From a virus, in the IMG/VR virus record IMGVR_UViG_3300032331_003144, positions 1-46,855 of that record: a stretch of DNA of 46,855 bases. One strand, 5' to 3'. A program made the position numbers and the translations under genes. Under the pieces are notes generated by a model, which saw nothing but the letters and a program-made list of their open reading frames with translations, searched no databases and was not told where the DNA came from. Positions 27,463 through 36,346 of this stretch are shown here, in pieces (the stretch's first letter is position 1; every line of letters starts with the position of its first letter).

Positions 27463-28815
27463 TTAAACTAAGTTTCTTATAGAACTTACATAAACTGTTG
27501 AAGCATTAAATGTAATCATTGTAATAATATCAACAGCATTTGCTACCGCAGATCCTGTATATAAAGAACCTGATGATTGTTTTACTATTAATGGAAAACT
27601 TACTGTTCCTGTACCTGCTGAACCTTGTGTTACACGAATATTTACTGTTTGTCCCGGGTTTATGTTTGTTGGATCAATATTAGTATTTGCTCCATTTACT
27701 AGTGTTAAAGTAAAGAAGTTATTTGTTGACATATCAAGGGATGCAGTAGTTGAGGCAATTGAAAGTGCAGTTACTTGTCCTCTTAAAGATCCGGAAACTT
27801 GTGAATTACCTTGTATGATAAGTGAGCCTGTAATTTGAGCCGATCCTGTAATTTGAGCCGATCCTGTAATTTGAGCCGATCCTGTAATTTGTACTTGTGA
27901 ACCAGATGCAAATATAAGATTTGATCTTGCAGCATCTGAGGTACCATTACCTACTATGAAAGCACTTTGTGCTGAGGAGGAGCGGTTGTATTGGCCTTGT
28001 ACGTGTTGGTATAGTCCTAATGCTACTGTGTTAAAGCCTTCTGCGTGTGAGTAGTCTTGAGAGGCCGTTGTAGCATAACCTTCTGCGTGTGAATAATATC
28101 CACTTGCAGATGTATTTCTTCCTTCTGCGTGTGAATAGTCTCCTACTGAATTTGTATCTCGACCTTCTGCATGAGAATATTGTCCTAATGCTATTGTATC
28201 TCGTCCTTCTGCGTGTGAATAGGATCCAGATGCTATTGTACTAAGACCTTCGGCGTGTGACCAATCTCCTTTTGATATTGCCGCATAACCTTCTGCGTGT
28301 GAATAGGATCCAGATGACTTTGTGCCATAACCTTCTGCGTGTGAATAATAGCCTGGTGCTTGTGCACTATGACCTTCGGCGTGTGAATAGTTGCCTGCTG
28401 CAAGTGAATTAAGACCTTCTGCGTGTGAATATTGTCCTGATGATGTTGTTTGATTACCTTCTGCGTGTGAATATTGTCCTTGTGCTTTTGTACTTTCTCC
28501 TTCTGCGTGTGAATAATCTCCGGAAGCCGTTACTCTAAGTCCTTGAACATGAGCAAATAATCCAGATGCTAAAGATGAAGATGCTTGGTTGAATGATCCA
28601 GTTATAATTGCATTACCGTTTACATCTAATTTTGCTGAAGGGGTTGTTGTTCCTATACCTACGTTACTTGATGTTTGGTAAAGTATACTGCTTGATAAAG
28701 TAGTTGATGTATCCCAAATCGCAATATAATTTGGGGTACCACCTTGTAAAGAGGTACCGTTTTGAGATTGGTATGCACCTATTGGAACTTGATCTAAAAA
28801 TCTTGCTTGAGCCAT
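27463..28815 (-). CDS. Tail fibre with SHAEG beta-roll repeats
   Basis: The 450-residue protein begins with a shaft-like region (NVGIGTTTPSAKLDVNG) common in phage fibres. Then come 12 consecutive 14-residue units of the form GxYSHAEGxxTxAS, with degenerate units on each side (LFAHVQG and LYQHVQG). This repeat builds the left-handed trimeric beta-roll seen in YadA-type adhesin heads and some phage fibres. After AFIVGNGT, a hexapeptide QITGSA repeats about four times, then a beta-rich C-terminal domain. I infer a trimeric host-recognition fibre; no chaperone or intramolecular cleavage domain is visible. Confidence 0.82.
   Translation of the reverse strand: MAQARFLDQVPIGAYQSQNGTSLQGGTPNYIAIWDTSTTLSSSILYQTSSNVGIGTTTPSAKLDVNGNAIITGSFNQASSSLASGLFAHVQGLRVTASGDYSHAEGESTKAQGQYSHAEGNQTTSSGQYSHAEGLNSLAAGNYSHAEGHSAQAPGYYSHAEGYGTKSSGSYSHAEGYAAISKGDWSHAEGLSTIASGSYSHAEGRDTIALGQYSHAEGRDTNSVGDYSHAEGRNTSASGYYSHAEGYATTASQDYSHAEGFNTVALGLYQHVQGQYNRSSSAQSAFIVGNGTSDAARSNLIFASGSQVQITGSAQITGSAQITGSAQITGSLIIQGNSQVSGSLRGQVTALSIASTTASLDMSTNNFFTLTLVNGANTNIDPTNINPGQTVNIRVTQGSAGTGTVSFPLIVKQSSGSLYTGSAVANAVDIITMITFNASTVYVSSIRNLV
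27827..27890 (-). repeat. 18-base tandem repeat inside the fibre gene
   Basis: CCTGTAATTTGAGCCGAT (plus strand) occurs three times in a row (27827-27880) and is followed by a ten-base partial copy. It encodes the hexapeptide repeat ITGSAQ and could change copy number by slippage. Confidence 0.85.
28030..28560 (-). repeat. 42-base coding repeat array (SHAEG units)
   Basis: Twelve units with the conserved core CCTTCTGCGTGTGAATA (plus strand) every 42 bases. Third positions vary (some units use GCATGAG or GGCGTGT), so most units are older than the 84-base duplication at 19297. It is protein-coding throughout and not a CRISPR array. Confidence 0.85.
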
Positions 28816-32135: not shown

Positions 32136-32870
32136 CTATTTTTTTAACTTTCCGTTTGTTCCTAATGAATTTGTTGTAATCCCATTTTCATTTGCTTCTT
32201 CATATAGTGTAATTAAATCATCTACAATTGGATCTCTATGGTTTTTAATTAAAGTAATAGAACACATATTTTTAATTTTACGCCCGGCTGTGTATAAAAA
32301 TCTAAATCCGGAATCCCGTCTTGATTTTAAATCTACTTGGTAATCATCCCCACATACTATCATTTTTGAACGCAAACCAATACGAGTAGCAATCATTTCC
32401 ATTTGTTCATGAGTAACATTTTGTGCTTCATCAACAATAATACATGAATCTAAAAATGTTCTTCCTCTCATAAATGCTAAAGGAACAATTTCTATTTTAC
32501 CATCATTGATAAGAGATTCTACTTTTTCTTTATCATAAAGAGCATACATATTTTGATAAATTGGTTGAATCCAGGGGTCCATTTTTTCTCTTAAATCTCC
32601 GGGGAGGAAACCAATTTCTTCTTTTGATACTGTTGGTCGTGTAATTATAATTTTAGTAAAATGTCGTCTTAATAAACCATCTAAAGCAACTTGACAAGCT
32701 AATAATGTTTTACCACTACCTGCTCTACCTGCTAAAATTGTTAATGTGTTTTTTAAAATTTCATCTTTTGCTTGTTTTTGTTCTTCATTTAGAGGAATTT
32801 TGAATTTAATAGGATTTTTTACTATTTTCTTTTCTCTAAATATTTCGTCGTTATGGTGGTTTGAGGTCAT
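32136..32870 (-). CDS. phoH: PhoH-like P-loop ATPase
   Basis: The 244-residue protein is a PhoH-family ATPase: Walker A GRAGSGKT (48-55), IIITRPTVSKEEIGFLPGD with the family's RP..GFLPG signature, Walker B CIIVDEAQN and the C-terminal KMIVCGDDYQVD and NHRD segments. PhoH is very common in marine and T4-like phages; RNA helicase or RNase-like activity has been suggested, but its phage role is not settled. It is the last of three enzymes set between the capsid and neck genes. Confidence 0.93.
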   Translation of the reverse strand: MTSNHHNDEIFREKKIVKNPIKFKIPLNEEQKQAKDEILKNTLTILAGRAGSGKTLLACQVALDGLLRRHFTKIIITRPTVSKEEIGFLPGDLREKMDPWIQPIYQNMYALYDKEKVESLINDGKIEIVPLAFMRGRTFLDSCIIVDEAQNVTHEQMEMIATRIGLRSKMIVCGDDYQVDLKSRRDSGFRFLYTAGRKIKNMCSITLIKNHRDPIVDDLITLYEEANENGITTNSLGTNGKLKK

Positions 32871-32896: not shown

Positions 32897-33613
32897 TTAT
32901 AATCTTTCAGAAAGACGGACTAATTTATCAAGTCCTGCATTTACATGCATTGCATCCTCCAATATTGTTTCAAAATTATATCTTTCGTCTAAAGGTAAAA
33001 CTAAATCTACTTGAGATCCCCATCTAATTAAACTAAATCTTTCATTTTGAACACAAAGATCTTGTTGTTTTTTAAAAGGAGCAATTACGTTTACATCTTC
33101 ATCAGCAATTTGAATTAAATAATATGTGTAATCTAAAGAAGGAACATATATTTGGTTAAACATTCTTTCATTATATTTTAAATATTCCATATTATTAGGA
33201 TTAATTACTTTATTTAAAATATCTTTTTCAACAGCTAACATTGGTCTATTTGTAGATTCAATAGGTTCTAAATGTTTGTAAGTAAGAACACCTCCATAAG
33301 GTATTCTATTAATATGAACATCATAAAAAGACATAAATATACCAATTACTAAGGATGGTTTATTGTATTCATCATCTCCCATTACATCTTTTAAGGTGTA
33401 ATTAATACCTTTAATTTCTACAACAGCCTCATTAGGTTGGACAACCTTTTGATATATAATAGTTCCATCAGCTGGGCTATAAAAATGTTCAGAGTCAATA
33501 TAGTTTGGTCGGATTGGATCTCTAAAGAAAAAGGTATTACTTAATTCACCTACAGGAAGTTTAGATAATTCTTTTACTTCTCCATTTAACCATTCAGTTA
33601 ATGTTTGTGCCAT
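32897..33613 (-). CDS. Phosphatidylserine-decarboxylase-like pyruvoyl enzyme
   Basis: The 238-residue protein matches the Psd family. FFFRDPIRP (28-36) is the usual entry motif. FYSPADGTII (44-53) carries Asp49 of the self-cleavage triad. GIFMSFYDVHINRIP (91-105) carries His100. LIRWGSQVDLVLP (195-207) has the cleavage site Gly199-Ser200, whose serine would become the pyruvoyl group (usually FGSRVD in bacteria). All three triad residues are present, so autoprocessing looks possible. Psd makes phosphatidylethanolamine from phosphatidylserine at the inner membrane. No transmembrane segment is visible, as in other short Psd forms. Its ATG overlaps the stop of the amidinotransferase-like gene (TAATG), so the two are coupled. 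The substrate may differ from PS. Confidence 0.82.
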   Translation of the reverse strand: MAQTLTEWLNGEVKELSKLPVGELSNTFFFRDPIRPNYIDSEHFYSPADGTIIYQKVVQPNEAVVEIKGINYTLKDVMGDDEYNKPSLVIGIFMSFYDVHINRIPYGGVLTYKHLEPIESTNRPMLAVEKDILNKVINPNNMEYLKYNERMFNQIYVPSLDYTYYLIQIADEDVNVIAPFKKQQDLCVQNERFSLIRWGSQVDLVLPLDERYNFETILEDAMHVNAGLDKLVRLSERL

Positions 33614-34527
33614 TATAATAAAGTTTTACAGTGATCAACTCTATTTAAATGCATTACCATACAAGAAAGCATAGCTCCTGATTTCATATATTCTGATAGA
33701 TTAAATATTACAGGTTCCATTCCTTCATTAGCACATATTTTTTCTAAAGAAGCGATTTTGTGTTTTTCACCTTCATAATATTCATGAGATTTTTTAAGTT
33801 CAGAAATGTTAGAAGCACATAAAATCATATTACCCATTCTTACTGAGTTTGTTATTCCCCCTAATGCATCATCAACATCAACGTCTATAATTTCAGTATA
33901 TTTTTCTAAATATTTGATTTCTTCTGGGTCATATAATTCCGTGCAAACTAAGGTTTTATCACCATTTAATGGAAATATAGAGCAATCTAAATGATACATA
34001 TATTCATCAGTCATTGCTAATTTAATAATATCCATATTAAATTCTTTTTCCATCCATTCATACGCTTTAATGTTTGAACGAATACCATAACCACCAATAT
34101 AAACATTGTCATATAGATATTTAATATCTGCTTCACCTTCCCATTTGTGTGGAGAGATGTGAGTATCATAACCCATCATTTTAAAGAATTTTTCACCTAC
34201 TAACTCTTCACCTTTACGAGGGTCTGATGTATAATTAGATAATAAAATTTTATTTGAATCTGTAATGTGTGGAAGATGTAAACCTAAATTAGCTACATAT
34301 ACTTGATCTTGGAAATTACCTTCAGAGGGTAATAAGTGTACTAATGATTGACCAGCCATAAAGTTATACAAATCCATAAATTGCTTGTATGCTTTAGGTC
34401 TATTGATTGCTAATTCATCATCTGTTAATTCTTGCATCCAGATGTTGTTGGGGTCCGCTGTTGATAAGGAAAACGGAAAATTCATCAAATAACTTTGTTG
34501 ATGTAACTGACTTGGGGTTTCTTTCAT
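33613..34527 (-). CDS. Amidinotransferase/DDAH-like guanidino-modifying enzyme
   Basis: The 304-residue protein has the motifs of the beta/alpha-propeller guanidine-modifying superfamily (arginine deiminase, DDAH, amidinotransferase). QDQVYVANLG (73-82) supplies an Asp. KWEGEADI (128-135) matches the FEGGD motif with Glu130 and Asp134. YHLDCSIFPL (178-187) gives His179 and Asp181. SVRMGN follows, and KSGAMLSCM (282-290) holds the likely catalytic Cys289. Family reactions are hydrolysis of methylarginine to citrulline or transfer of an amidino group from arginine to an amine. Which one applies here cannot be told. It starts a three-gene run with the Psd-like and PhoH genes, right after the capsid terminator. 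Confidence 0.8.
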   Translation of the reverse strand: MKETPSQLHQQSYLMNFPFSLSTADPNNIWMQELTDDELAINRPKAYKQFMDLYNFMAGQSLVHLLPSEGNFQDQVYVANLGLHLPHITDSNKILLSNYTSDPRKGEELVGEKFFKMMGYDTHISPHKWEGEADIKYLYDNVYIGGYGIRSNIKAYEWMEKEFNMDIIKLAMTDEYMYHLDCSIFPLNGDKTLVCTELYDPEEIKYLEKYTEIIDVDVDDALGGITNSVRMGNMILCASNISELKKSHEYYEGEKHKIASLEKICANEGMEPVIFNLSEYMKSGAMLSCMVMHLNRVDHCKTLL

Positions 34528-34584
34528 ATTATAACTAATTTATTGTTCTAGTATACATATGATATAGGCCTAGGTAAATAAAAA

Positions 34585-34608
34585 AAAGCCTCGATTTCTC
34601 GAGGCTTT
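34585..34608 (-). terminator. Strong terminator after the major capsid gene
   Basis: AAAGCCTCGA and TCGAGGCTTT form a perfect ten-base stem with a four-base loop. On the minus strand it is followed by seven T residues. It isolates the capsid gene from the amidinotransferase-like gene. Confidence 0.8.
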
Positions 34609-34630: not shown

Positions 34631-36346
34631 TTAGATAGTATTTAAACCATTAATATAAATTTTTCCATAAAACTCTGGGCGCAACATCTTCTTAGCGTAA
34701 CGAGTCAATAAACCTTTACGTGGTGTAAATGTCTCTGGATCGTACACTAATGGAGTCATGATTAACGGAATGTATGGAGCAAACACAGCACCTGTTTCCA
34801 AGAATTGTGAACCTCTATATCCCATTAAAATCAAGTTTTCAGTCATGTAAGGATTTTTGTAAACCTTATAACGACCATTAACTGTACCTATTTTTTGTAC
34901 ACCAAAAGCATATTCCATTTGATCCGCTTCACCGTTGTTTGTAGAAGCAAATCCAGGGATTGACTCAAGGATAGTAGCAATTGTAGGAGAAGTTACTAAG
35001 AAATTAGCACCTCCACGTAAAGTTAATGAATGGATCTTATTAGATACTTTTTGAATTTTAGTACCTAATGTTTGGAACCATTGACCTTGTGTGTTATAAA
35101 ACGCTTGAGTTGTTGCGGCAGCAGCAAAAGCACCATTTGCATAAGTTGTGTTGTTAATAGCTGACCAGTACTCAGTTGCAGCAGCAGCATCTTCAATTAA
35201 CATATCTAAGATTTCTAAATCAATTTCCATTGAAATATACTCAGACATGATGTTTGTTAATTCCGCTTCAGCATCGATGTTTTGGTAAGCAGCTAAATCT
35301 TGTGCAAATTCAGGAGTCCATACAGCTTTTAACTTTTTAGTCTTAGCAGTAATGGCTTGAGATTGCATTCTTACGTTAATCTCAGGAATAGAGATTTGTG
35401 TGTTTGAAGCAGCATTTGGTACTGAGAAAGAACCTGATGCTTCAAAATCACCACGACCTGATCCACTGTAATTGTTTCCACCTGAATAAGTTGGAATACC
35501 ATCTACGTTACCGTTTTTCTGATAAGTAACTGTATAAGCACCGTTTTCTAGGATTTGTGCTGTAGAAGCAGTTACATAGAAAGTAATAGTGTTATTAGTA
35601 TAATCATAAGAAGTAAAATTGTTTAAGTTGGTAGCTGTAACAATGTTTGAGCCTGAAGAAATAATAAATCCACGAACTGCATCTTGATCAAATCCTGGAA
35701 GGTTTGTTGATGCTGCTGGGAAGACGATTTCTTTAATAGTACCTGCAGCTACTGATGCTGAATAATCAGAATCAAAACGAATATCAGCAAAAGAAGCAGA
35801 TGTAACAGAAGCTGATGCTGTAATTGCTACTGCTGAACTTGAGAAGTTGTTAGTTGCGTAAGTAAAACGGCCTTCTGGTCCACCATATAAACCACCTACA
35901 GTATTAGTAGTTGAGAATGGAAATTGAGAAGCTGTATTTCTATTACCATATAATGAAGTACCTTCAGTAAATGGACTCTTAGTGTTACCATATTGGAAAT
36001 CTAAAAAGAATACAAGGCCTGATGGCATATTCATTGGTTGAACTGAAACGAATTCTTTAGCTACGATAGTACCGAATACTTTACGTACTAACGGAAGAGC
36101 AATACCAGCCCAGTTCTCACCTTGTCCGTTAGAAACGAATGATGAGTTTGAAGAGATTTGGTTTGTTTCAGTTACTAATTGTTTAGCTTGATTTTCCAAC
36201 ATGATTGACATATTGTTTTTTTCAAACTCACCTAGACCTTCTAATAGTCCTGTTCTAGACCATTTTCCAGCTAATCTAGCAGCGTCGCTTTGAAGTGACT
36301 TCCAAGAGCCGGCTGCGCTTTCTAATAATTGTTGTACTTGTGACAT
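34631..36346 (-). CDS. 23: Major capsid protein, gp23-like
   Basis: The 571-residue protein is the main head subunit. The N-terminal WSRTGLLEGLGEFEKNNMSI and MLENQAKQLVTE are typical of gp23, followed by GENWAGIALPLVRKVFG, PMNMPSGLVFFLDFQYG and later AVWTPEFAQDLAAYQNIDAEAEL. MEYAFGVQKIGTVNGRYKVY and PEFYGKIYINGL lie near the end, all standard gp23 blocks. The leading segment before the GENWAG block is probably removed by the prohead protease. A Ser/Ala/Thr-rich insertion at about 150-330 is the variable surface domain. The leader is A/C-rich (AACAACTAAAAACAACA8), suited to strong translation in Bacteroidota. Confidence 0.95.
   Translation of the reverse strand: MSQVQQLLESAAGSWKSLQSDAARLAGKWSRTGLLEGLGEFEKNNMSIMLENQAKQLVTETNQISSNSSFVSNGQGENWAGIALPLVRKVFGTIVAKEFVSVQPMNMPSGLVFFLDFQYGNTKSPFTEGTSLYGNRNTASQFPFSTTNTVGGLYGGPEGRFTYATNNFSSSAVAITASASVTSASFADIRFDSDYSASVAAGTIKEIVFPAASTNLPGFDQDAVRGFIISSGSNIVTATNLNNFTSYDYTNNTITFYVTASTAQILENGAYTVTYQKNGNVDGIPTYSGGNNYSGSGRGDFEASGSFSVPNAASNTQISIPEINVRMQSQAITAKTKKLKAVWTPEFAQDLAAYQNIDAEAELTNIMSEYISMEIDLEILDMLIEDAAAATEYWSAINNTTYANGAFAAAATTQAFYNTQGQWFQTLGTKIQKVSNKIHSLTLRGGANFLVTSPTIATILESIPGFASTNNGEADQMEYAFGVQKIGTVNGRYKVYKNPYMTENLILMGYRGSQFLETGAVFAPYIPLIMTPLVYDPETFTPRKGLLTRYAKKMLRPEFYGKIYINGLNTI

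Follow-up and report, generated by a model that had tools for sequence, protein, structure and literature searches.

An arginine-dihydrolase-like gene paired with a phosphatidylserine-decarboxylase-like gene in T4-like phages and bacteria: a predicted route from arginine to putrescine

The locus and its transcription signals

The window, by which we mean the whole 46,855-nt stretch of IMG/VR DNA that was analysed, represents part of a T4-like phage record, with genes for a gp23 capsid protein, a prohead protease and PhoH. The two genes under study, here called A and P, lie between the capsid and PhoH genes, with the following features in and around them.

34631..36346, minus strand: major capsid protein gp23, upstream neighbour of A (PF07068, E 3e-74)
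34578..34608, minus strand: intrinsic terminator between the capsid gene and A (-19.2 kcal/mol, z -6.1)
34552..34560, minus strand: promoter-like motif ATATGTATA upstream of A, kept in relatives
33613..34527, minus strand: gene A, arginine-dihydrolase-like guanidino-modifying enzyme (ATG start, 304 aa, complete)
33611..33615, minus strand: TAATG, overlap of the stop of A and the start of P, read from the sequence
32897..33613, minus strand: gene P, phosphatidylserine-decarboxylase-like pyruvoyl decarboxylase proenzyme (238 aa ORF, PF02666)
32136..32870, minus strand: PhoH-like ATPase, downstream neighbour of P (PF02562, E 5e-63)
19569, 22465, 24095, 26251, 26517, 28844, 32117, 43057 and 45763, minus strand: TAATATWTATA sites near genes

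The TAA of A (33615-33613) and the ATG of P (33613-33611) have one base in common, as an earlier sequence-only reading of this DNA had noted, and the same TAATG overlap is found in 111 of the 125 IMG/VR loci with both genes, the two genes being no more than 16 nt apart in the others. That reading had also placed the pair in one unit after a capsid terminator, and indeed a hairpin followed by a T-run separates the capsid gene from A in 87 of 92 relatives (0 of 92 shuffled sequences). The letters of the terminator stem vary among relatives, with pairing kept. Because the motif ATAT[TG]TATA is conserved about 34 nt upstream of A (82/92 relatives, approximately 1.6 being expected by shuffling), A and P are probably transcribed from a promoter of their own. 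A T4-type TATAAATA late promoter was sought upstream of A and showed no consistent occurrence. Elsewhere in the window, 9 of the 18 minus-strand matches to TAATATWTATA (at most one mismatch) fall in the 60 bp before a minus-strand gene, a zone that makes up about 5% of positions, and the motif is a candidate for the late promoter in this group of phages. Positions 27463-28815 (minus strand) contain many YSHAEG repeats resembling the heads of YadA-type adhesins and probably encode a tail fibre. Purifying selection acts on A and P alike (median dN/dS 0.13 and 0.10, respectively).

Identity of the two proteins

The sequence-only reading had described A as amidinotransferase/DDAH-like and had named PF02274 as its family. 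A Pfam search gave no match of A to PF02274; the sole Pfam match was PF19420, at 22.4 bits slightly below the cut-off of 23. By HMM, sequence and predicted fold, A is instead nearest to arginine dihydrolase, ahead of DDAH and the amidinotransferases. The arginine dihydrolase model NF052232 matches A with an E value of 1e-22, and since its score of 80.5 bits does not reach the equivalog cut-off of 450, we describe A as arginine-dihydrolase-like and as a separate subfamily; the dimethylargininase family is also matched, likewise far under its cut-off. The ArgZ/AgrE entries of the PDB are recovered with E 1e-13 by sequence search and 2e-19 by profile search. The AlphaFold model of A (pLDDT 89.6), which like that of P was predicted from alignments with IMG/VR relatives only, has ArgZ (6jv0) as its best Foldseek match (E 1e-20, TM 0.89 of target), and ArgZ/AgrE structures take ranks 1-13 (E 1e-20 to 1e-17). 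The DDAH fold match (E 2.5e-12) is some eight orders of magnitude behind ArgZ. DDAH/amidinotransferase as the nearest family of A was rejected on these weaker matches in both sequence and fold.

Alignment of A with AgrE gives the residue pairs N80/N71, R104/R90, E130/E118, R150/R139, H179/H168 and C289/C264. Of the catalytic residues proposed earlier (a Glu or Asp, His179 and Cys289), the His and Cys are exact and the acidic residue is E130. Together with R104 and R150, all three are unchanged in 121 phage relatives, including those of Campylobacter and Bacteroides phages, so that loss of the Cys or His, which was looked for, was not found in this set, where invariance, like synteny, is partly a matter of kinship because most of the sequences are closely related. 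N80 is present in 120 of the 121, with one gap, and position 134 is Asp in the phages and Glu in most bacterial relatives. An Asn at the position of N71 is the mark of dihydrolases, the corresponding residue being Asp in deiminases and, at the position equivalent to N80, also in DDAH; PDB entry 6juz is the N71S mutant of ArgZ, N71 aligning with N80 of A. The two arginines at the positions of AgrE R90 and R139 hold the substrate carboxylate in this superfamily, and their presence in A as R104 and R150 agrees better with arginine than with agmatine as its substrate. The 'dimethylarginine dimethylaminohydrolase' of Xanthomonas phage phiXF1 (L156, 4995-5813) is also ArgZ-type, with the Asn signature and a match of E 3e-69 to 6jv0; no P was matched in this phage, and from its sequence the enzyme appears to be a second, separate phage arginine dihydrolase.

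P had been recognized earlier as a Psd-like decarboxylase, an assignment confirmed by its match to PF02666 (E 7e-25, 88.2 bits, gathering score 22 passed). This is its only Pfam match, and the AdoMet_dc fold (PF02675) of SpeD-type enzymes is not found in P. The residues for pyruvoyl self-cleavage and the GS site are intact, D49, H100 and G199-S200 being unchanged in 86 relatives. P-type proteins form a clade of their own in a tree, apart from the type II Psd homologues and on a long branch (support 99/100), in a set of rows that holds no biochemically characterized Psd. Set beside 26 Psd homologues drawn from comparable (bacterial) genomes, they have E129 and D171 in 18 of 18 rows and D173 in 17 of 18, D171 replacing the canonical A/G; they have Q189 where most Psd have K, and are further marked by Q201, giving GSQ instead of GSR/GST. 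As E129, D171 and D173 are acidic and Q189 replaces a lysine, the sequence suggests that P may be fitted to a cationic substrate. The predicted structure of P is of moderate confidence (pLDDT 73), and its best PDB match, the tryptophan decarboxylase PsiD, is weak (E 0.02).

These features bear on two alternatives to a pathway through ornithine. The main rival reverses the order of steps, P making agmatine from arginine and A converting agmatine to putrescine, 2 NH3 and CO2. Arginine would be as well served as ornithine by the acidic changes in the pocket of P, and the named phages infect hosts that presumably rely on arginine decarboxylase. Phages are, moreover, known to have pyruvoyl arginine decarboxylases of a different fold (PMC9992855). 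Against this, A retains both carboxylate-binding arginines, for which an enzyme acting on agmatine would have no need, and its nearest characterized relatives act on arginine; we consider the agmatine route unlikely.

The other alternative is lipid remodelling, in which P would be a phosphatidylserine decarboxylase or a close relative and A would modify a guanidino or amine head group. It accords with the membership of P in PF02666, but not with the long separate branch or with the replacements K189 to Q and A/G171 to D. Nor does it sit well with the distribution of lipid genes, since a PF02666 scan of 26 P genomes showed another Psd homologue, distinct from P, in 22 of them. The remaining four (G002, G011, G019 and G029) have only the P-type protein among their PF02666 members, and PssA was found above cut-off in none of the four and in 6/6 comparison genomes by a search with TIGR00473, a model that misses some kinds of PssA. 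Lipid remodelling by the pair was rejected on this phyletic, residue and tree evidence, and we hold it, and the action of P on a lipid, to be very unlikely. Of the earlier suggestion that the two genes make an amine-bearing metabolite or lipid, it is thus the amine that survives, and putrescine fits better than that open wording.

The pair in phages and bacteria

The functional link proposed in the sequence-only reading is borne out by linkage, which is solid. A and P stand side by side in 125 of 138 IMG/VR loci (counted as distinct by A/P sequence), and the twelve one-gene loci are contig-end cases, as judged by match position, together with the Campylobacter loci and Xanthomonas phage phiXF1. 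Both genes are matched, and adjacent, in 6 Bacteroides phages. Among public Campylobacter phages A was matched in 40 records and P in 39, the records being the same, yet in Campylobacter phage NCTC12673 the two genes are unlinked, approximately 43 kb apart. In NCTC12673 (L155, 4694-7185) P comes after a GroES gene, and its 3' end overlaps with the gene for a homing endonuclease. SpeD and SpeE were sought in 13 phage records and neither was found, for which reason the phage contribution would be putrescine only.

Beyond what had been noted earlier, the pair is a conserved module of bacteria too, and is present, unlinked and unrecognized, in long-sequenced Campylobacter phages. A scan of GTDB genomes gave 34 loci with P, 33 of them bacterial. 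The other (L443), a contig in a Flavobacteriales bin, holds a capsid gene with A and P and is a phage sequence, which offers a hint at the host. The bacterial P proteins, at about 46-55% identity, come from Verrucomicrobiota, Actinomycetota, Campylobacterota, Pseudomonadota, Latescibacterota, Planctomycetota and Eisenbacteria, in a survey made up mostly of incomplete MAGs, with Sulfurimonas among the bearers of the pair. In 30 of the 33 bacterial loci P is followed by A in the fetched DNA, the reverse of the phage order. Two of the three exceptions (L446 and L475) end at or near P; the third is the complete genome of Latescibacterota G002, in which A, followed by a MATE-like gene, lies about 615 kb from P. 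A whole-genome search found A in 31 of 32 genomes with P. Within the order around G014, P is present in 4 of 114 genomes and A (E < 1e-150) in exactly these four, another four having only distant A relatives (1e-20 to 1e-29); the match has p ~1.5e-7, a value uncorrected for kinship.

It could be argued that A and P are bystanders, two core genes co-inherited in one phage lineage and not acting together. Most phage loci are indeed relatives at 67-99% identity with a constant order of capsid, A, P and PhoH, the PhoH-like gene coming after P in most of them. Against this stand the retention of both genes where they are unlinked, in Campylobacter phages and in the Latescibacterota genome, their reversed order in bacteria of several phyla, and the coincidence of A and P in the same four of 114 genomes, which together make mere co-inheritance highly improbable.

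A MATE exporter is often next to the bacterial pair, and in Verrucomicrobiales the genes after the pair encode a PotD-like protein (spermidine/putrescine-binding, 2e-53) and a histidine kinase. An M90 peptidase lies upstream of the conserved cluster P-A-MATE-PotD-like-histidine kinase, which is seen in L457 (4921-12711) and in other Verrucomicrobiales. Such exporters are compatible with a different product, some other small amine derived from arginine or a different amino acid with a guanidino group, be it a modified diamine, an amine for modification of DNA or of a natural product, or an exported metabolite. The annotation of P in NCTC12673 notes, in addition, a similarity to an ORF in AF210249, a record that we take to be the bleomycin cluster. 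The PotD-like neighbour in Verrucomicrobiales argues against this explanation, as does the fact that only A and P are consistently common to phages and bacteria, with no consistent third biosynthetic enzyme, and an amine other than putrescine seems to us a doubtful product. Streptoalloteichus hindustanus has two copies each of A and P (L477 and L481), and no natural-product cluster was evident near either among the ORFs inspected in stretches of 40 kb and 20 kb.

Bacteria with P are often poor in other enzymes of putrescine synthesis. SpeA is matched in 9 of 32 P genomes (7 over cut-off) and in none of the other 23, and OKR decarboxylases are absent from 28 of the 32. Verrucomicrobiales with the pair have neither SpeA nor an OKR-type decarboxylase, and most have a single PF02784 (alanine-racemase-fold) decarboxylase, which in those sampled is LysA. 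Latescibacterota G002 has SpeD and lacks SpeA, OKR and PF02784 enzymes. Given the nine genomes with a SpeA match, the pair is not always the only putrescine route.

A predicted arginine-to-putrescine pathway and its known relatives

From these observations we infer the substrates, the order of steps, the product and the biological purpose as follows. A, acting as an ArgZ-type arginine dihydrolase through Cys289, His179 and Glu130, with Asn80 replacing the aspartate of deiminases, would remove both guanidino nitrogens and convert arginine to ornithine, 2 NH3 and CO2. P, a Psd-fold proenzyme, would cut itself at Gly199-Ser200 to form a pyruvoyl group and would then decarboxylate free ornithine to putrescine. 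We favour this short route by two consecutive enzymes, with a probability of about 0.58, because an ornithine-producing hydrolase adjoins a pyruvoyl decarboxylase with cationic-substrate residues, and because polyamine transport genes lie nearby in genomes that have few other enzymes for putrescine synthesis. From its genomic context the pair is predicted to have a polyamine-related auxiliary metabolic role in phage infection. The phage may raise putrescine late in infection with two enzymes of its own, bypassing the host route, and the extra putrescine would perhaps serve to neutralize packaged DNA or to support translation. That P, with its Psd fold, represents a new class of pyruvoyl ornithine decarboxylases, and the pair a mobile arginine-to-putrescine pathway of T4-like phages and several bacterial phyla that bypasses arginase, arginine decarboxylase and PLP-dependent ornithine decarboxylase, is a wider proposal to which we give slightly better than even odds.

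Should the proposal hold, one more protein fold would be capable of ornithine decarboxylation, and phages would own an arginine-to-putrescine route. A survey of polyamine genes in the virosphere reported PLP- and SpeD-type decarboxylases and arginase, with no arginase in phages (PMC9992855). The proposal would also account for two Campylobacter phage genes whose long-standing annotations are lipid enzyme and amidinotransferase, fill the missing putrescine route in bacteria without the known decarboxylases, among them Verrucomicrobiales and Latescibacterota, and reveal an unrecognized polyamine route in scattered bacteria of several phyla. Neither 'phosphatidylserine' nor 'Campylobacter' occurs in the text of that survey, the accompanying study on bacteria (PMC10407285) is silent on the Psd fold, and neither names phosphatidylserine decarboxylase homologues as polyamine enzymes. 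An ocean survey treated viral psd as a lipid gene (PMC11360552); if the proposal is right, phage 'psd' should not be so called in surveys of auxiliary genes. The sequence-only reading knew of no such pair in a described phage system, and likewise no paper on it was found by a full-text search whose coverage leaves out most subscription journals.

Among known systems, A most resembles ArgZ/AgrE of the cyanobacterial ornithine-ammonia cycle (6juy, 6jv0, 6lrf), with which it shares the fold, the Cys, His and Glu, the two arginines that bind the substrate and the signature Asn. It is, however, only about 22% identical to its nearest solved relatives in structural alignment, lacks the ornithine cyclodeaminase domain, is paired with a decarboxylase and scores far under the equivalog cut-off. 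DDAH and the amidinotransferases have the superfamily and the catalytic triad in common with A, but are weaker matches in sequence and fold. P shares its family, the conserved Asp and His and the GS self-cleavage site with type II phosphatidylserine decarboxylase (PF02666), from which it differs in its separate clade, in GSQ, in the acidic residues 129, 171 and 173 and in usually being found in genomes that have another Psd as well. A Psd-family decarboxylase whose substrate is a free amino acid has a precedent in PsiD (PMC12603985). PsiD of Psilocybe (PDB 8x4q), the best, though weak, fold match to P, is fungal, takes an aromatic substrate and is about 10% identical to P in structural alignment, whereas P has its own acidic subfamily residues. 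Lastly, the SpeD-derived ornithine and arginine decarboxylases resemble P in being pyruvoyl enzymes of phages and bacteria, and have been shown to make putrescine or agmatine (PMC9992855; PMC10407285); unlike P, they are built on the AdoMetDC fold.
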